A stretch of DNA of 64,000 bases. It comes from Thermodesulfobacteriota bacterium (lineage in GTDB: Bacteria > Desulfobacterota > UBA8473). Numbering within the stretch: the first letter of the stretch is position 1; each line of letters opens with the position of its first letter. This document shows, piece by piece, positions 44,221 through 54,559 of this stretch. The DNA lies in the NCBI GenBank assembly GCA_040757775.1, contig JBFLWQ010000006.1:62001-126000 (forward strand), given 5' to 3'. The notes beneath the pieces are model-generated. The model had not been told where the DNA came from, made no database searches, and saw only the letters and a program-made list of their open reading frames with translations. The translations under genes were made by a program, and so were the position numbers.

Positions 44221-45111
44221 TCAACTCCCCACGATCGTGATTTTATCAACAAATTCAAAGGCTGGTGATTCACCATAATCTTTCCAGCGCTGTTGATAGA
44301 GAGGCAAGTCAAGAAGGCTGATATCAGTTGTCTCGCCCTCTTCTCCCTCATCGAGGCCGACATCAATCCTTATCCCACCCAAGTCGGTTAATACATAGCG
44401 TGGGTGTAGCTGATCTCCAGGATTATCTTCGTGCTGTTTCCATCGCACAAAGGTTATTGCCCTATTCCTTGGAAGAAGTAGTGGAATATGCCTCATGCAT
44501 TCTGTCTTGAAATAAGTCTCTCCTAAATCGTCGCCGACGTGATATTCTATGCGGTTAACTTTTTCGTTCCCGTCTAATGCCATCAGAAAATGAAATAGCG
44601 TTCTGCGAAATCGCTTTTTTGTTGGGTCAAAATGAGGATCGACAAAGAGTACCTCTGAAGACATTTGCAAAAGGGGCTGGACCAATTTTGCCAATACCTC
44701 TGCACTTCTCGGAACACAGTCCTCTCTCTTTACTCTTAGTAGTGGCGTATTTTCTTCGCTGACAGCATCTGCTATGAGCACCTCGGGAATACCTCTCGGA
44801 TTGGCGTTTGAAATAATCGCATGAAAGGGTTTAATGTTGTGCTGTTCTTCTGCATTAATAATCCATGCTAAAAAATAATCGTACGATCTACTTGTCTTCA
44901 TAAGCTTAAGATCAGCATTGATAAGGCTCTCTTCAATACGCTTACGCTCGTAATCGCTACATGCAGCACAGGCATCATAGACCATTTTTTTCCATTTTTT
45001 CGGGAAGCGTGAAATGAGCCGGCCACGGTGAACGCCGAATTTCTCAAGGAAATAGCGCACTTTATCAAAGTTGTACAAAACGCAGGGATCTAAGGCATAC
45101 TCATACAGCAT
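44221..45111 (-). CDS. PLD-like phosphodiesterase with HxR-x4-D motif
   Basis: 296 residues. From about 151 the sequence looks PLD-like: a strand EVLFVDPHFDP, typical of the first strand of this fold, then HPRYVLTD at 236-243, matching HxK-x4-D with arginine for lysine. Such domains act as nucleases in restriction and defence. The N-terminal half (about 1-140) is helical and unfamiliar. It is the last gene of the R-M operon, 2 bases behind the ATPase, so the two should be translated together. The nuclease reading is inference. Confidence 0.55.
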   Translation of the reverse strand: MLYEYALDPCVLYNFDKVRYFLEKFGVHRGRLISRFPKKWKKMVYDACAACSDYERKRIEESLINADLKLMKTSRSYDYFLAWIINAEEQHNIKPFHAIISNANPRGIPEVLIADAVSEENTPLLRVKREDCVPRSAEVLAKLVQPLLQMSSEVLFVDPHFDPTKKRFRRTLFHFLMALDGNEKVNRIEYHVGDDLGETYFKTECMRHIPLLLPRNRAITFVRWKQHEDNPGDQLHPRYVLTDLGGIRIDVGLDEGEEGETTDISLLDLPLYQQRWKDYGESPAFEFVDKITIVGS

Positions 45112-45113
45112 AT

Positions 45114-46694
45114 TTAGAAGAGCTCCTTAGTGCGCTCACCGAAGAAACCCCTTGGCCATTTTGTTGTGAATTCCCCTGTTTTGTCCAAATTTAATTTTGT
45201 AATACGCATTCCCTGATCTGTCTGCTCAACAAAATGGATAGAGAGCAAATCCGGAGAACACGCTGGGGCATCAACTGGCAAGCCGTCTTCACTGGTCTCT
45301 CTTATTCGTCGAAGCATCCGCAAAAGTAAATGCTCGCTATGTGTTTCTAGCAGAAAGCAGACATCCTGCTCCTTTACTTGAGAAATAAAGAGGTCACCTA
45401 ATGCAACCTGAAATGCTGGATGAATATGTAGTTCCGGCTGCTCGATAGCAACGATGCCACTGTTTGAGTGAAGGGCAACAACAATAACAGGAAGCACCTG
45501 TGAGATGCCGATCCCGACATCCTGAGGAAGCACTTCTATGCCATTTGTCTCATCTCGAAGAAACAATTTTTTCTTTTCAGGCAGCCGTTTAATTTGTTCA
45601 ATAGCTTCTTCATCATCAAACAGAAGCTCCGTACTGGTAAGAGATAACCAGAGTGAACTCGCTGTGTCGAGCTCTTTGTATTTCCTGATATCTATTCGAT
45701 AACCTGAGTTTAGTTTGTTCTCGCTTGATAACCAGGTATTTGTCTTTTGGATAAACTCGTCATCTGCCCTGTTAAGTACATCCCAGGCAGCCAAGCCGCT
45801 CGTCCATCTTGCTTCCTCTTCAGTCCGCAACGGAGTAAAAAACCTGGGCGGCGTTTTGCGAATTGGACCGATATAACGAAATTTCCTCAGTTCATCTCTC
45901 AGTACATTGGCCAACCCTCCGAAATAGGTATGGAAAAAGTCGTTAAGCGTTTCCCATGTTGATGGTGCAAGATATTCATCAAGTTCGGGTGGTTCTAATC
46001 GGTCTTTCGATTCCTCAGCCAATGCTTCTTTATCCATAAGTTCACTATTCAGGTTAATATATCGGGGGAGGGCTGTTTGCTGATCAATAAATAATTCTAT
46101 CTCGTTGCTTGAGAAGATGAAATCCTTCTTGATTGCTATCATTATGGCAGATAGCAGGTTAGGAAAATTTACGTTCTCGTCTTCAAGCTCAATCTCTGAT
46201 GTGCTGAGTAAGTGATGCTTAAAATTTATATCAACGATCCTGGCTTTTTTACCAGCCTCGTCGCAGATGATTTTGCCAAAATGCTCATCATCTAACCCTA
46301 CAGTACTTGAAAAGACGAGAGGTGCATTCAGAAAGTTGCTCCATTTGATCTCGAACTCGATCCATGCATTATCGACTTCCCCCGCCAAGAAATCTGAATA
46401 GTCGGCCAAAGGAGAATAAGCAATCTCAAACTTGAATCTCATGGGTAGGTTCAAGTCATGTTTATGTAACAGATTCCTAAATCCGCCTAAGTCGAATGAT
46501 TCATCAGCCCCTGCCGTGCGGTCTGCATCTACATTATTCCTTTCAAGAATTTCACGAACATAATGCAAAGTCTGGACAATTGTGCTCTTACCGGCGCTGT
46601 TAGGACCGAAGAGGAACGTAATTGGTTTAAACTCCACACGCACCGGCTCGTGTATGCCTTTGAAATTCTCGATGGTAAGGGCTTTAATCATCAT
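45114..46694 (-). CDS. AAA ATPase with DUF3696 domain
   Basis: 526 residues of the SMC/OLD-like ATPase type: Walker A GPNSAGKS at 30-37, signature-like GIGISQVLP near 395, Walker B VAIEQPELHIHP near 415-425, a later ETHSEHLL H-loop and the C-terminal DUF3696 pattern (TKWPRGFFGERTKEL). No TOPRIM nuclease domain, unlike OLD. Such ATPases often pair with a separate nuclease, here perhaps the PLD-like gene. ATG with GGAGAAC ahead. Confidence 0.85.
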   Translation of the reverse strand: MMIKALTIENFKGIHEPVRVEFKPITFLFGPNSAGKSTIVQTLHYVREILERNNVDADRTAGADESFDLGGFRNLLHKHDLNLPMRFKFEIAYSPLADYSDFLAGEVDNAWIEFEIKWSNFLNAPLVFSSTVGLDDEHFGKIICDEAGKKARIVDINFKHHLLSTSEIELEDENVNFPNLLSAIMIAIKKDFIFSSNEIELFIDQQTALPRYINLNSELMDKEALAEESKDRLEPPELDEYLAPSTWETLNDFFHTYFGGLANVLRDELRKFRYIGPIRKTPPRFFTPLRTEEEARWTSGLAAWDVLNRADDEFIQKTNTWLSSENKLNSGYRIDIRKYKELDTASSLWLSLTSTELLFDDEEAIEQIKRLPEKKKLFLRDETNGIEVLPQDVGIGISQVLPVIVVALHSNSGIVAIEQPELHIHPAFQVALGDLFISQVKEQDVCFLLETHSEHLLLRMLRRIRETSEDGLPVDAPACSPDLLSIHFVEQTDQGMRITKLNLDKTGEFTTKWPRGFFGERTKELF

Positions 46695-46695
46695 A

Positions 46696-47826
46696 TTACA
46701 GTTCTCCTCGGAAAGCGCGAGTGCTAAGGGAATTGAATAGTTGATCTGTTAGCTTCCCAAAAGCATCTTTGCGGTTCTGTTTTTCTGTCAACTTCAAAAC
46801 GCATGCTGCAAATTTCTCTTGTAATGCTATCGGCGGCAAATAATGCTTTATATCTCGAACTTGATCTTGTCCAATGGTGCTCATCGTTACTGTGTTGGAC
46901 TGCTTTATGATTCTTTCTCTCATGCCCGGCTGCCGCAGAAGAAAGTTATAAAAGACCCCATTCATTATGTTCGGCTTTGGACGCACACGTATCAAATGAC
47001 ACTCAAAGAGAGCCTTGCCGTTATCGCCCCAATAAACATTTGTATATCCGATGCCCCCGAGCTTGAGTGAAGATCTGCAGAAAAGAATATCACCACGTCG
47101 TAGTGAATATTTCTCGACTTCTTTTGCTGTTGGACTCAATCCTACTGAGCTTGAAGTATCAATTACATATCCAGCAAAAAGCTCCTTGACCCAAACAACT
47201 GGTACATCACCTCCATATTCCTCATTCTTTCTGAAAATGCCATTGTTGGGATTCCCTTCAATAACATCCCCTAAGCGGACTTCTGGCCACCTCTTTGGAT
47301 TGGTTATCGGGTCGCCAAACATGTCGAGGAAGACCGAGCGAAGAAATTCGTCGGTCAAGCAAATGGATTCCTGCCGCCTCTGACGGATGGAGTCAGCCTT
47401 GTCGAGGATAGCGGCTATGCGTTGCTGTTCGTCGAGAGGGGGGAGAGGGATTTCTGCATCAGTAAGATAGTTGAGTTTTATATATTTGATTACTCCACCA
47501 ATACTCATTTCTCTGAGCTTCTGGACATAAATAGATAAGAAATGAAACAAATATCTTGGAGAGAGTCTGGCTTTGTCTAAGGATTCTATAACATAGGTTC
47601 GTTGATATGCATCGAATTTACCATCGTAATATTTCACATTAAGGTCACCATTCCCAGCAACAAGAACACATTCACAATCGAAACTATAAGAATTTATTCT
47701 TAGTGGCGCTACGGCGCAGCTAAAAAAAGGATAAATTCCTTTTGGATCATTAGCGTTAGCATCGAGATTGCCTGTACGAATCTTTACATAATTTCCAAGG
47801 CTATCCGTATCATATCGCGATTTCAT
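46696..47826 (-). CDS. hsdS: type I restriction-modification specificity subunit HsdS
   Basis: 376 residues from the ATG at 47826, which overlaps the hsdM stop (TGATG) and has AGGAG upstream. Two target-recognition domains: the first ends in LPPLDEQQRIAAILDKAD and the second ends near LPPIALQEKFA, each followed by a helical spacer. It selects the DNA target of the complex. Confidence 0.93.
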   Translation of the reverse strand: MKSRYDTDSLGNYVKIRTGNLDANANDPKGIYPFFSCAVAPLRINSYSFDCECVLVAGNGDLNVKYYDGKFDAYQRTYVIESLDKARLSPRYLFHFLSIYVQKLREMSIGGVIKYIKLNYLTDAEIPLPPLDEQQRIAAILDKADSIRQRRQESICLTDEFLRSVFLDMFGDPITNPKRWPEVRLGDVIEGNPNNGIFRKNEEYGGDVPVVWVKELFAGYVIDTSSSVGLSPTAKEVEKYSLRRGDILFCRSSLKLGGIGYTNVYWGDNGKALFECHLIRVRPKPNIMNGVFYNFLLRQPGMRERIIKQSNTVTMSTIGQDQVRDIKHYLPPIALQEKFAACVLKLTEKQNRKDAFGKLTDQLFNSLSTRAFRGEL

Positions 47827-49352
47827 CACAGCATCTCCTCAAGTTCCGACATGTCCTTCATAATCTCATTCTCCAATCCCTTTAGCTTCTTCAAAATATC
47901 TTTGGGATGCTCATACTTCATCTCTTCATAGACTGTCTCTTTGTAGCGATTAAGGGAGAGGTCATAGTTCTTGTCTCTTATATCGGTCACTGGCACGAAG
48001 AAAGCCTTAGTAGTTCGAGCGATATCCTTCAGTGGATCGCGGGCTTTCCAGCTGGCCAGGCACTCAGGCAAGTCACCGGCAAAGGTGCTATCGTAAAGCT
48101 GAGTGCGTTTATCGTCGAGGGAAAATCCGTCATCCTGCATATCATAGAAGAAGACATTCTCGGTCTTGCCCCCTTTCGTGAAGATCAATATGCCAGTCGA
48201 TACCCCGGCATAGGGCTTGAAGACGCCGGACGGCAAGGAAATAACCGCCTCAAGCTGATTATTGTCCACCAGCTTTTGCCGCAGCGCAACATGGGCATTG
48301 GATGATCCAAAAAGAACACCATCGGGAACAATCGTTGCAGAGCGGCCGCCATTCTTAAGCATCCGCAGAATGAGAGCTACGAATAGGAGCTCCGTCTTCT
48401 TGGTTTTGACTTGAGCCAGAAGTGACGAGTGGACATCCTCGAAATCGAGGCTTCCCTTAAACGGCGGATTCGCCAGAATAATGTCAAAAAAATTCTGCGA
48501 TTGTTTCGGAAATTTGTCGGAAAAGCTGCCGCTCAGGGTATCCTGGTAATGAATGTCGGGGGCATCAAGGCCATGGAGCAGAAGGTTCATGGCAGCGATG
48601 CGAAGCATGGTAACGTCGAAGTCGAAACCATGGATGAGGCTTGTCTGAATGTGCTCCCGATACGGCTCCAGGAGATCGCCGCTGTAAACCTTCTCGCCCT
48701 CGTGGTCAATAACTCCCTCAGGCGAAGTGTATTTCCTCTGTAGATAGTGCATGACTTCAACGAGAAATCCGCCGGTTCCGCAGGCAGGGTCGCCAATCAC
48801 TTCATTATGCTCAAGATGGGGATCGAGTAACTCGACCATTAGGCGGATAATGTGGCGCGGTGTGCGAAACTGGCCGTTGATACCTGCAGTAGTTAGCTTG
48901 CTCAAAAGATACTCATAAAGATCGCCCTTCGTGTCTCCCTCGGTCAGAGGTAACTCGTTGATCATGTTCAAGGCAGAGACAAGCAGGGTCGGTTTGTTTA
49001 TCATTAATTGAGCATCTTTCATATATTCGCCGAACTTGGCCTCTTCTACTGCAACGTTTTTGAAGTGCGGGAAGACCTTGTCGCGCACATGTGGCAGCAT
49101 CTTGTCGGCCCCATAGTTCTTGAATTCCTTCCAGCGAAGCGCCTGGCCTCCTTCAGTGTCCGGAAAGATACGGCGGAACGGTTTGTTGGTTCTCTGGGCT
49201 TTTTTCTCATTGCGGGTTTCTGCAATGTCCAGAAGCTTCGCGAACATAAGAAACGATATCTGTTCTATAACCGTAAGTGGGTTCGTAATCCCACCAGTCC
49301 AGAATTCTTCCCACAGTTTATCGATGCGACTTTTAAGCTCTCCAGTTATCAT
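47826..49352 (-). CDS. hsdM: type I restriction-modification methyltransferase HsdM
   Basis: 508 residues: HsdM N-terminal helical domain, SAM motif [10 protein letters not shown] at 188-196 and catalytic motif NPPF at 295-298. It methylates adenine at sites chosen by HsdS. It overlaps hsdR by four bases (ATGA). Confidence 0.95.
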
Positions 49353-52300
49353 GCTGATGCTGTCTCCTTATGCTCTGGTAGTTGAAAGGGTTTAATGATC
49401 TTCAACAGTTCAACAATCTGCTCTTCATCTGTGAACACACCATCAAGACCATCACTATTAATAGAGGTGAAAGGCGGCTCATAAAGCCGATCCATCTGTA
49501 TCGCCCTGTGTTTTGAAATATGATTTTGCAACAGTCTCATGAAGAGAACCTGATTGGCAGTTACTTGTGGATATTTTTGCACAAACTGTTCGAAACGATG
49601 TTTTATGGCATTAGCGTCAACACCAATGATAGTGCGGATAATGTAATCCAGCGGGACTGCTATGTCATAAAATTCTCGAAGAATATTGAGATCAACGCTG
49701 GGATTCTGTGTTAGAACCATGGAGATAAGTGCATTCAGGTCTGTATCGTTGACTGGTTCGCCTGCTCGTATTTTTTGAAGAGTCGGGTTGGTGTCAAACA
49801 TGCTACAGAGAGTTTCCTCCACCTGCTTCTTGTATACCGATGCATCTATTTCGCGGATGTTAGACTTTCTATGAACGAGTTCTATGCCACCATCGGCAAC
49901 GTCGATAATCTTAGGCGGCATTGATGTAGTTGCATCCTTTTGACGGTGATGCATAATACCACGCAAGTCTTTTCGGACATCTTCAAGTATAGCTACACTG
50001 ACAGTATCCCAAAAGTCGGAAGTCTTGACCTTTTTAAGTGTTGCCGCCCGCTCCCTGACCGGATTGAGATGGAGTATAAGCTCGCTTATCCATCCAAGGA
50101 ACTTGTCTTTCAAATCAGCAAAACGTCCACTTCCGCGTAGAATCTCTGTCTGCATACGGGTAACCAAGAGATCAAAGGCATAGGCATCTGCAGGACCCGA
50201 AAGCTTGATCCACTGCATGAGTGGTGCCATATCGTTACGTAGGGCAGCGATAGTTGCCGGTGAAAATTGCCTAAGCACTTCAGGCCGGGACACGCTCCGT
50301 TTTTCTTTCCAATGCTTACGAACGGCGATAGTCTTTTCAGGCAAGCTGTTAAGATCCTGTCCTATTAACAGAACTGTCTGTTTGTGAACATCGATCTCAT
50401 GCTTTGTTAACGCCAGTTCCGCTAGGTCAATTCGGGCTTCAAAGAGCTTCTGCATGAGCGATTTGGTGATCGTCGGCTCAGCTTCAGGTATGTTCTCCTC
50501 AAAGTATTCGAAATTCCCCCAGTGGTCGAAGATACGGAACTTCGTCTTATCTTTTCCGGGACCGAACAGATTCTTGCTTAGACGGGTACCTCGACCAATC
50601 ATCTGCCAGAATTTGACGCGGGACTTTACTGGCTTGGCAAATACGAGATTCACGATTTCAGGAATGTCGATTCCTGTATCAAGCATGTCCACAGAAATAG
50701 CTATAGTTAAATCCTTATTGTTTCCCTCTCCCTTGAAATCATCTATAAGCTGTTCTGCCCGAGGATCATAGTTATCAATCACCTGGCAGAAAGAACCGCC
50801 ATACTGTGGATACATCTCGTCAAAGAGCTCAGAGATCAATATGGCATGTTCATGATTCCGAGCAAAGATGATAGTTCTGCCGGGATGTTGGCCAGTCGCT
50901 TCACGAAGACCATTTTCCATGAGATTACAGAGAATGGCTCGGTTTGTATCTTTGTTGAATATCTGTCTGTCGACCTCTGTTGCCTCGTAATCAAAGGTCT
51001 CAGGGTCTTCACCGTCCTCCTCCAGTTGTTGCCTCTGCTCATCGGTAAGCTGAGAGTACTTTATCCCACTGCGGAGGAAGTTAGTTGTATGAGTATAGAC
51101 CTCATAAGGCACAAGATATTCTTCTTCTACCGCGCGTTCGAGGGGATAATATGAAGACGGGTGTTTATCTTCACAATCGAAAAGCCGGTATGTGTTTCTC
51201 GCAACATATTGAACTGGTGTAGCGGTCAGCCCAATCTGGAGACAGTCAAAATAGACGAAGGGGTCACGGTACCGATTATAGATGCTGCGGTGAGACTCGT
51301 CGGCAATGATAAGATCGAAAAAGCCCACATCAAAGGTCTCGAATATCTTCATCATTGCAGGATATGTCGATAAATATATTCGCTTGCTGCGGTCCTTTGC
51401 AGTATCGGCTCGTACAATAGTAAGAGGCTCATTAATAAATTCTTTAAAAACATTTTTTGCCTGCTTTCGAAGTTCCCTACGGTCGCAAAGGAAAAGGACT
51501 CTCTTTACCCACCCGGCACGAATAAGAAGGTCGGTGAGCGCTATTGCAACACGGGTCTTTCCGGTGCCGGTTGCCTGAACAAGAAGGGCCTTGCGGTAGC
51601 CGTTGCCGAATCTCTCGCAGACACGTTTGATAGCCTCAAGTTGATAGAGGCGGTCAACAATCTCTGTCCTTGGTGAGATAGAATCAAGAGGCACTTTAGT
51701 TCTTCTTTGCTGGACAAGATACTGAAGACTGTCCTTCGAATAGAAACCTTGTATCTGCCGCGGAGGGTAATTCTGCGAATCATCCCACATCCAGAGTTCA
51801 AATCCATTTGTGTAAAAGATAACCGGTCGTTGGCCATATTTTTTTTCAAGACCTTCGGCATATAGCTGTGCCTGCTTGCGGCCGATGTTAGGATCAACAG
51901 CAGTCCTTTTCGCCTCAATCACTGCCAGAGGTTTGCCGTCATCATCCTTTAATTCGTAGTCGGCATAGCCGATTCCTGTTTGAGTAGGCTGATAGGGAAC
52001 AGTCTCTTCCTTGACCATCATGCCATCCCATTCAGCCTTGAAATCCCAGCCAACCTCCGTGAGCATACTGTCGATAAGTCGCTTCCTCGTAGCTTCCTCA
52101 TTAAAGCCCAGGACATCAACAGCCTGTTTGCCGGCATTAGTAAGAGCCTGCAAGTATTCAGTCTTCTGTGCTACAAGCTGAATTGCCGCCTGTTTGGTTT
52201 CCAGTTGCTGTAGAAGTTCTTGCAGCCTGGCTTCCTGAGCAGCCAGCTTTTCAAAGAGAGCCTTGTGCGGTACAGCTGCTGCTTTTTCTGTCACTTCTTC

Positions 52301-52726
52301 AGTAACAGGACGAGGGACTTCCTGATATGAAGGGCACTCATTTTTGCTCCCATTTTCAACAACTATATAAAACCAGCAAGCAAGATCAAAGGCTTCCTTT
52401 AGAAGCCAAAGGGACTTTTCTTTTGTCTGGGGATCACCATGGGCTGCCTTGTTGCCATGGATACGGATACTATGGAATTTGTCGAGGACAACAAACGGTA
52501 CAGTTGAACGGAAGGCGTCATTATTCAAGAGGTCCAGAAGATTTGGCTGATAGGGCCTTGGCAGGCCTAATTTTGCATAGATACGCGTGACCATCCTTTC
52601 GATAAACGAACGAAGCTTGACCAGACAACTCGACGGGTCATGATAGACGTACTGTTCAGCAAAGCCCGCGAGGTCTGCCAGCTCTGGGGAGTTTTTTCGG
52701 AGGATCTCAAAATTAGTGGATTCCAT
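49349..52726 (-). CDS. hsdR: type I restriction endonuclease HsdR with DUF4145 domain
   Basis: I place the start at the ATG at 52726 (MESTNFEIL), which has GGAAGCG upstream and lies just downstream of the transcription start expected from the sigma-54 promoter at 52755-52770. About 1125 residues: DUF4145 (about 10-110), coiled coil, HsdR nuclease domain with IEAKRT near 271 (PD-ExK type), helicase with QATGTGKT near 385 and DESH, then a C-terminal EcoEI-R-type domain. The enzyme translocates and cuts unmethylated DNA. Confidence 0.93.
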
Positions 52727-52754
52727 ATTTATCGCTTCCATGGAAAAGATAATT

Positions 52755-52770
52755 CGCAAACATTATGCCA
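52755..52770 (-). promoter_or_regulatory. sigma-54 promoter (-24/-12) of the hsdRMS operon
   Basis: On the minus strand TGGCATAATGTTTGCG fits the sigma-54 consensus (TGGCAC-N5-TTGC): GG at 52769-52768 and GC at 52757-52756 are separated by exactly 10 bases. It begins right after the TGA of the sigma-54 activator gene. The expected start of transcription is near 52744, 18 bases ahead of the preferred hsdR ATG. Confidence 0.75.
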
Positions 52771-54288
52771 TCATTTCTCGATACCATATTTTTTCATCCA
52801 GTTGCTAACAGTCTGGTAGTTTGATAACCCTACCAATTTGGCGATCTTTGTCTTGTTCCCCTTGCTCTCAGTAACCGCTCTTTTCAGATAATGACGCGCC
52901 ACATCTGAAAGCACGTCAGGCAAGCTGAAACCATTGCCCATACTGCGATTGAGGGTCTTCTCTTGGTCTTTCTGGGAAGTGCTCACGGGGAACAACGCCT
53001 CCCTAATATCGCCAATTTCTATCGTCTCATCCGCGATCAGGATAGCAGCCCGCGAAAGCGTATTGTAGAGCTCCCGAACATTACCAGGCCAAGGGTGCTG
53101 GTGCATAAGATTTCTTGCGCCGGCAGAAAGTTTCTTATGCTTCCAACCGGATACGTCCTCGAACTTCTTATTTATGCTGTCAAGGATATGATCGATCACC
53201 GGGTTAATATCTCCGTGACGGTCTCTGAGCGATGGCAGGTTCAACATACCAACGGCTATACGATGAAACAGGTCATCCCTGAATCTCCCCGCTGCGACAT
53301 CCTCGATAAGATTGCGATTGGTTGCAGCGATGATCCTAACATTAATTGATTCTGCCTTGCTGGAGCCGACCTTAGTGATCATGCCCCCCTGAATGGCGCG
53401 CAGAAGCTTTACCTGTGCAGGAAGGGGCAGCTCTCCGATTTCATCAAGGAAAAGGGTCCCGCCATCAGCACTTGAGAAATATCCCTCCTTGTCGGCTATA
53501 GCACCCGTGAATGCTCCTTTCTTGTACCCGAAGAACTCTGACTCCACCAGATCGGGCGGTATCGAGCCGCAGTTGACTGCGACAAAGGGCTTATCTTTTC
53601 TTGGGCTTGTTGTATGAATAGCACGAGCGAAAAGCTCCTTGCCAGTGCCGGTCTCTCCCTGTATAAGGACAGGAACATCATGAACTGCGAGCCTTCGCGC
53701 CTGCGCAATGACTCTCTTCATCTCCTTACAACGGTGAATGATAGCACCGAACTCAGGAGACTCAGGAGGTAGCCCCTGGGTGAGCCTCAGTATTTCATCG
53801 TCAGCAGGTTTCAGGATGTCGGGTATATAATCAGCCGATATTTCAAAAGGAAAAGATACGGTCTTTAATCCTTTATCCTGAGACGACTCGATTAGTTCAG
53901 CGGGATGCGAGGTCTTTGATAGAAGTATCCAGACAGCAGCCATAGCCGGAGTGCCAGGGCTTAGGTGATAGGTTGAGTGTAGTTCCTTCAACCCAAGCTT
54001 TTTTATTACATCATTTATAGCGTTGGTCGCTGCCCCATAAATCTCTTTGAAGTCTGTCGGGCTGGTTAATTCAACATGATATTTAAGAATCATGGCCGCC
54101 GTGTTTCCCTTGAGCCAGTCGATGAAATGCTTTTCTTCCTCTTCCTTGTAGTTTGAAATTAGGATGACATGAGAAAAAGTGCGTTTGCTAACGGCCTGAC
54201 CAATTGGCCCAACGCCATTTTCCAGTTCCCCCTGTGAGGCTCTCAGGTCGGTTTTTCCTATCCAGGCAAACAGGACTTTATTAACCAT
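52771..54288 (-). CDS. RtcR-like CARF-domain sigma-54-dependent activator
   Basis: 505 residues from the ATG at 54288 (an ATG three codons upstream is less likely; see promoter). Residues 1-160 resemble the CARF domain of RtcR: VELTSPTDFKEIYGA, then LSPGTPAMAAVWILLSKT (ligand-loop GT motif) and AELIESSQ. The AAA+ domain has Walker A GETGTGKE (about 211-218), the sigma-54-contacting GAFTGA (about 258-263), Walker B TLFLDE and a C-terminal Fis-type helix-turn-helix. No rtcA/rtcB genes are here; instead hsdR follows behind a sigma-54 promoter. CARF domains bind nucleotide or RNA-end ligands; which one is unknown here. Confidence 0.88.
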   Translation of the reverse strand: MVNKVLFAWIGKTDLRASQGELENGVGPIGQAVSKRTFSHVILISNYKEEEEKHFIDWLKGNTAAMILKYHVELTSPTDFKEIYGAATNAINDVIKKLGLKELHSTYHLSPGTPAMAAVWILLSKTSHPAELIESSQDKGLKTVSFPFEISADYIPDILKPADDEILRLTQGLPPESPEFGAIIHRCKEMKRVIAQARRLAVHDVPVLIQGETGTGKELFARAIHTTSPRKDKPFVAVNCGSIPPDLVESEFFGYKKGAFTGAIADKEGYFSSADGGTLFLDEIGELPLPAQVKLLRAIQGGMITKVGSSKAESINVRIIAATNRNLIEDVAAGRFRDDLFHRIAVGMLNLPSLRDRHGDINPVIDHILDSINKKFEDVSGWKHKKLSAGARNLMHQHPWPGNVRELYNTLSRAAILIADETIEIGDIREALFPVSTSQKDQEKTLNRSMGNGFSLPDVLSDVARHYLKRAVTESKGNKTKIAKLVGLSNYQTVSNWMKKYGIEK

Positions 54289-54323
54289 AGTAAACATTAT
54301 ACAAAATATTTCATAAGTCGCAA
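54289..54323 (-). promoter_or_regulatory. sigma-70 promoter giving a leaderless activator mRNA
   Basis: On minus: TTGCGA (54323-54318), 16-base spacer, TATAAT (54301-54296). The ATG of the activator begins 7 bases after the -10, where transcription should start, and no ribosome site exists. The mRNA would thus be leaderless. Confidence 0.6.
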
Positions 54324-54559
54324 GATATTTTATTTCTTATTACTTTAGAAGGTGATATAGTATAAAGAATATATACTGTGAGACCTTTGGAAAACTATTT
54401 TTCTTTTGAATTGCCCACCCCCTACATAAAAAGGATTTACAAAAAGAAAAAAGGGATTATATTAAAAAGAAAGACTAAAAGACGATAGTCTTATAGAGAA
54501 AACAATTAACCGAATTAGCTAAGGTGGTTAATGGGGTTAAACATAGGGAGGTACTAAGG
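54324..54559. other. AT-rich intergenic region ahead of the IscU-like gene
   Basis: It holds a 19-base dyad (AGTATA-7-TATACT, 54359-54377) and A-rich tracts. The promoter of the iron-sulfur genes should be here, perhaps with a -10 near TATATT (54459). No gene seen. Confidence 0.4.

Follow-up and report, generated by a model that had tools for sequence, protein, structure and literature searches.

Putative sigma-54 control of a type I restriction-modification operon by an adjacent CARF activator with a candidate enhancer inside its own gene

Introduction

In the 64,000-nucleotide stretch of DNA analysed here (the window), the sequence TGGCATAATGTTTGC (minus strand, 52756..52770) is predicted to be the core promoter of an hsdR-hsdM-hsdS-ATPase-orf296 operon, read by sigma-54 RNA polymerase and opened by the adjacent CARF-AAA+-HTH activator. 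This protein would be made from its own sigma-70-type promoter and would stay inactive until its CARF domain senses a ligand derived from infection or damage, which, by analogy to Escherichia coli RtcR, may be RNA ends carrying a 2',3'-cyclic phosphate. The ligand-bound activator would then bind a 32-bp dyad within its own gene, approximately 377 bp upstream of the start site, and loop from there to the promoter to drive the operon. The activator promoter is itself overlain by another copy of the dyad, which suggests autoregulation. For this explanation as a whole, comprising the sigma-54 operon promoter, the adjacent sensor-activator, the in-gene dyad enhancer and its second copy, we estimate a probability of about 0.85.

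Activators of this type are often linked to restriction-modification (R-M) genes, and sigma-54 activation was predicted from gene content (PMC4012209). The R-M link was extended to CoCoNuT superoperons, with RNA ends proposed as the ligand (PMC11090510). The general idea is already predicted, and the promoter conservation, the candidate in-gene enhancer and the start-codon geometry described here are new detail; no description of the cis-elements was found in the literature searched, with subscription papers and supplements lying outside the search. An earlier note on this DNA had considered sigma-54 control of a restriction system unusual: such control is supported by the present comparison, and its unusualness is tempered by the prediction in PMC4012209.

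Results

The operon lies on the minus strand and comprises hsdR (49349..52741), hsdM (47826..49352, overlapping hsdR by 4 nt) and hsdS (46696..47829), all recognized by Pfam and PADLOC, followed by a gene for an AAA_15/DUF3696 ATPase in the last-but-one position (45114..46694) and orf296 (44221..45111), which encodes a 296-aa orphan protein that accompanies the ATPase in the window as well as in several relatives. The genes overlap or sit 1-2 nt apart, and the joint occurrence of hsdR, hsdM and hsdS assigns the system, as predicted from sequence, to type I R-M. The activator is encoded upstream on the same strand (52771..54288). Its product matches the PADLOC model RtcR_PspF2--CARF_AAA_HTH (PDLC01995) with 638 bits over residues 7-507 of 508, and this full-length match with CARF, AAA+ and HTH parts places it in the RtcR_PspF2 family. 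The Pfam sigma-54 interaction domain Sigma54_activat (227 bits) and a GAFTGA motif are also present. The protein is not RtcR itself, the rtcBA regulator: it scores 344.6 bits against the RNA_repair_RtcR equivalog, below the curated cut-off of 650, and rtcBA is absent next to the gene, whose downstream neighbours are hsdR, hsdM and hsdS.

The activator stop codon TGA occupies 52773-52771 and TGGCATAATGTTTGC begins at the very next base, 52770. It contains an exact GG-N10-GC (GG at 52769-52768, GC at 52757-52756) and agrees with TGGCAYRN4TTGCW at 11 of the 12 specified positions, the sole mismatch being the final base (G). The earlier note had described a textbook sigma-54 element directly after the stop codon, which holds, and its transcript start near 52744 is reproduced when C(52756) is set at -12. 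The bare GG-N10-GC is uninformative (323 occurrences in the window versus 340 expected by chance). The longer pattern TGGCAYRN4TTGC is found 18 times in the 3.1-Mb genome versus 3 times for a reversed control pattern, so that the majority of its matches are probably real. The genome carries one rpoN gene.

Conservation of the element was assessed in relatives retrieved with a CARF-only profile (A1) from the same phylum and from viral contigs, and from plasmids via a CARF query. This profile was adopted because a scan of genome contigs with the full-length activator, and likewise a family scan, returned mostly generic sigma-54 activators matching the AAA+ part alone. In the phages collection, no relatives were found. 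The census covered 49 full-length activators of the family with sufficient downstream sequence; a promoter was counted if a sigma-54 site of at least 10/12 lay 0-21 nt past the activator stop, and a neighbour was termed hsd-like if its sequence matched the window's Hsd proteins. All 27 loci with an adjacent hsd-like gene possess such a site, with one of them (L174) matching via a DUF4145 protein only and another (L248) via a very long methylase-like protein. Five further loci carry the site ahead of non-hsd genes, and the 17 loci without it include none with an adjacent hsd gene (Fisher P=4e-9, which overstates independence because the sequences are related). This distribution argues against chance, and the possible refutation named in the earlier note, a lack of GG/GC conservation in orthologous loci, did not materialize, as every hsd-adjacent locus has the element in the same place. 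The promoter-positive loci represent 13 families of the window's phylum, together with Pseudomonas luteola, Azotobacter, Vitreoscilla and Vibrio plasmids. Among the carriers of the cassette, Azotobacter chroococcum can be cultivated.

A -24/-12 match that arose by chance or has decayed, with hsdR transcribed solely by read-through from the sigma-70-type promoter of the activator, is very improbable: the two genes do share a strand, are separated by only 29-44 nt and show no terminator-like site between them on the minus strand, but the site recurs at a fixed position in every one of the 27 loci with hsd-like genes, is lacking where adjacent defence genes are lacking, and has a background of only 4 matches of 11/12 or 12/12 elsewhere on the same strand in 529 kb of homologous loci. 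By this comparison the element is real and not a chance match; promoter activity and sigma-54 dependence are predicted for it, and read-through from the activator promoter could feed hsdR as well.

Two variations on this arrangement were observed. In a distant subgroup with low CARF scores (L153, L154, L156, L157, L259-L261, L263), a 12/12 sigma-54 site lies approximately 100-116 nt past the stop, and in the loci that were read further it is followed by a small nuclease-like gene and then hsdR. The activators of L168, L170, L174, L245 and L246 present GAFSGA in place of GAFTGA, with promoter and dyad still kept.

The position of the promoter bears on the start codon of hsdR. The earlier note had favoured the ATG at 52726, with an intergenic space of 44 bases; comparison instead favours 52741, which reduces this space to 29 nt and makes 52726 the second in-frame ATG. 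If +1 is placed 12 nt past the C of the -12 GC, the ATG at 52741 lies at +4, and the first in-frame ATG falls at +1 to +4 in 14 of the 16 loci with the window's hsdR type. The hsdR mRNA is therefore probably nearly leaderless, starting translation at 52741 instead of 52726. In these loci the second in-frame ATG follows exactly 12, 15 or 18 nt after the first, and the maintenance of frame over three spacer lengths suggests that the first ATG is translated. A GGAG-type ribosome-binding site precedes each of hsdM, hsdS, the ATPase gene and orf296, and none is seen ahead of hsdR at 52741. Where hsdR is of the other, EcoAI-like type, several loci show a start further downstream, preceded by an ordinary ribosome-binding site; near-leaderlessness would thus be common but not universal. 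A competing interpretation, which we consider unlikely though deserving of attention, treats the first ATG as incidental and places the start of HsdR translation at 52726, after a short leader carrying a ribosome-binding site. Here, GGAAG is located 8-9 nt ahead of 52726 and similar purine stretches occur at that place in several relatives. However, 14 of 16 loci of this type keep the upstream ATG in frame, all spacers being multiples of three, and in two relatives (L236 and L241) the stretch separating the ATGs lacks a ribosome-binding site.

A scan of activator genes for synonymous-codon conservation revealed a sharp peak at 53137-53106, which coincides with a 32-bp imperfect dyad, TAAGAAACTTTCTGCCGGCGCAAGAAATCTTA (53106..53137, minus strand), with the consensus TAAGAAAATTTCTGC-NNNN-GCAAGAAATCTTA. 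It is situated inside the activator gene, approximately 377 bp upstream of the predicted transcript start and approximately 335-367 nt before the stop codon. Within the dyad, NTT is retained even where the encoded residue shifts between L, I, V and F. In promoter-bearing loci, TCT, GCA, AGA and AAT occur there much more often than the codon usage of the respective gene would predict (P 3e-9 to 1e-26, values that are too small because the rows are related). The constraint therefore acts on the DNA. The window's dyad has a matrix score of 48.6 bits and is the unique best match in its genome for a model trained on such sites; no second convincing site was found in this genome as a further target. 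We infer that the dyad is the binding site and candidate enhancer (upstream activating sequence, UAS) of the activator. A distance of 377 bp exceeds that of most described enhancers.

The earlier note had directed the search for inverted repeats to the last 200 bases of the activator gene, where none was found. A CCAG-N11-CTGG element near the HTH codons was rejected as an enhancer, since it is explained by YQT..NW codons and its third bases vary; this coding artefact was the only signal from the final 330 bp of the activator genes.

A second dyad copy (54301..54332, plus strand) overlies the putative sigma-70-type promoter of the activator, TTGCGA-N16-TATAAT (54296..54323, minus strand), which was obtained by a consensus scan (10/12) and assigned by position. 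The -10 element of this promoter (54301-54296) ends 7 nt ahead of the preferred start codon at 54288, so that the activator message may be nearly leaderless too; no ribosome-binding site is seen ahead of 54288, and the alternative start at 54297 overlaps the -10. For the second copy, a matrix trained on in-gene sites only was applied to the 75 bp before the activator start. Copies with P<0.05, mostly at -44 or -45, were found in 25 of 45 loci; a control region gave none in the 45 loci (combined P 5e-27 for the upstream copies, calculated on related sequences). The copy in the window reaches 6.3 bits (P=0.007 versus shuffles) at the same distance to the activator start as in relatives, which suggests an autoregulatory site.

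The fate of the in-gene dyad in loci without the promoter is mixed. Five promoterless loci (L172, L238, L244, L249, L250) have also lost the dyad. Orphan activators with neither a sigma-54 site nor adjacent R-M genes (L251, L252, L253, L255, L232, L239) have kept it, and in these the dyad may serve autoregulation alone; the combined pattern fits a second, autoregulatory role. A reading in which the promoter is real and the in-gene dyad is an RNA hairpin, the site of another protein or an element of autoregulation only is unlikely. It would accommodate retention of the dyad in several promoterless orphan loci and the ability of the window's dyad to fold as RNA (-14.1 kcal/mol, z -4.1). Yet the corresponding sequence of a relative does not preserve this fold (-2.7 kcal/mol, z 0.3), and the hairpin is rejected for this reason; dyad copies also lie over the activator promoter, mostly upstream of its predicted transcript, and the five loci named above, which have no promoter, have lost the dyad too. 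An enhancer bound by the activator remains the preferred reading of the dyad.

Many CARF domains bind cyclic oligoadenylate ligands. The genome of the window contains a full-length Cas10/Csm1 gene of a type III CRISPR system (G000:C29:180-2573, L284). Taken together, these two points could mean that the switch is correctly described and that its ligand is a cyclic oligoadenylate made by this CRISPR system rather than damaged RNA ends. We regard this as improbable, since Cas10 does not co-occur with the activator, exceeding the cut-off in 4 of 28 activator genomes and in 4 of 28 sampled relatives without it, and E. coli RtcR likely does not use such ligands (PMC9650030). As Cas10 is no commoner with the activator, the preferred guess follows the RtcR analogy, namely RNA ends with a 2',3'-cyclic phosphate (PMC9650030; PMC11090510).

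The same arrangement is found ahead of other operons. A -24/-12 site lies upstream of a VWA-PP2C-kinase operon (L130), of a MoxR-type operon (L136) and of operons that contain the ATPase-orf296 pair (L170, L174), and the control cassette looks portable among defence systems. In a deltaproteobacterial MAG (L050:390-1465), an activator of the same family with the dyad has a -24/-12 site, TGGCACGTTTGCTGCT, past its stop and is followed by BrxA, another gene and BrxC, which constitute a BREX system. The ATPase-orf296 pair (44221-46694 in the window) recurs beside RtcR-like CARF activators without a full hsdR (L170, L171, L174, L238, L193, L195), as would be expected of an independent defence module that has come under this control. 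Members of the activator family also occur in contigs classed as viral (L191, L193, L195), one of which (L191) has the dyad and a 12/12 promoter; the cassette may thus travel on prophages or other mobile elements.

Discussion

Several known systems resemble the arrangement described here. The PspF-psp phage-shock switch likewise employs an AAA+-HTH sigma-54 activator for a stress operon; the binding sites of PspF lie outside the pspF gene, whereas the candidate dyad lies inside the activator gene. PspF is named a close homologue in PMC4012209 and has AAA+ and HTH domains only, with no CARF domain. E. coli RtcR-rtcBA (PMC9650030) shares a CARF-AAA+-HTH activator, a sigma-54 promoter and an upstream activating sequence; RtcR is constitutive there once its CARF domain is deleted. 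In contrast to that system, the target here is an R-M operon, the activator is located co-directionally upstream of it and the candidate enhancer resides within the activator's own gene. In the CoCoNuT and R-M superoperons, co-directional defence genes are likewise headed at their 5' end by an RtcR-like gene, and these homologues were proposed to act via an upstream activating sequence (PMC11090510); unlike in those superoperons, the set of genes examined here yielded no CoCoNuT. The closest counterparts are the R-M-linked RtcR relatives of the RtcR_PspF2--CARF_AAA_HTH type (PDLC01995; PMC4012209), with a whole-length match, an R-M neighbour and predicted sigma-54 activation. The published accounts found for them describe gene association only, to which the promoter, the in-gene dyad and the start geometry are added here.

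A bolder and quite speculative extension is that the ligand-sensing activator, the in-gene enhancer and the sigma-54 promoter abutting the next start codon form a self-contained portable cassette placed before unrelated defence operons (type I R-M, BREX, kinase/phosphatase and MoxR). Its nearly leaderless transcripts would be translatable despite damage to the Shine-Dalgarno interaction of the ribosomes, a form of RNA damage of the kind expected to trigger the sensor.

The type I R-M system of the window appears to belong to an inducible family for which a sensor, a promoter and a candidate enhancer are now defined. The ligand of R-M-linked CARF activators becomes addressable by a simple reporter experiment, and the 32-bp element combined with the -24/-12 site provides a signature with which further operons controlled by this switch could be sought. 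In addition, the geometry of the start codons prompts the question whether defence messages can be nearly leaderless.
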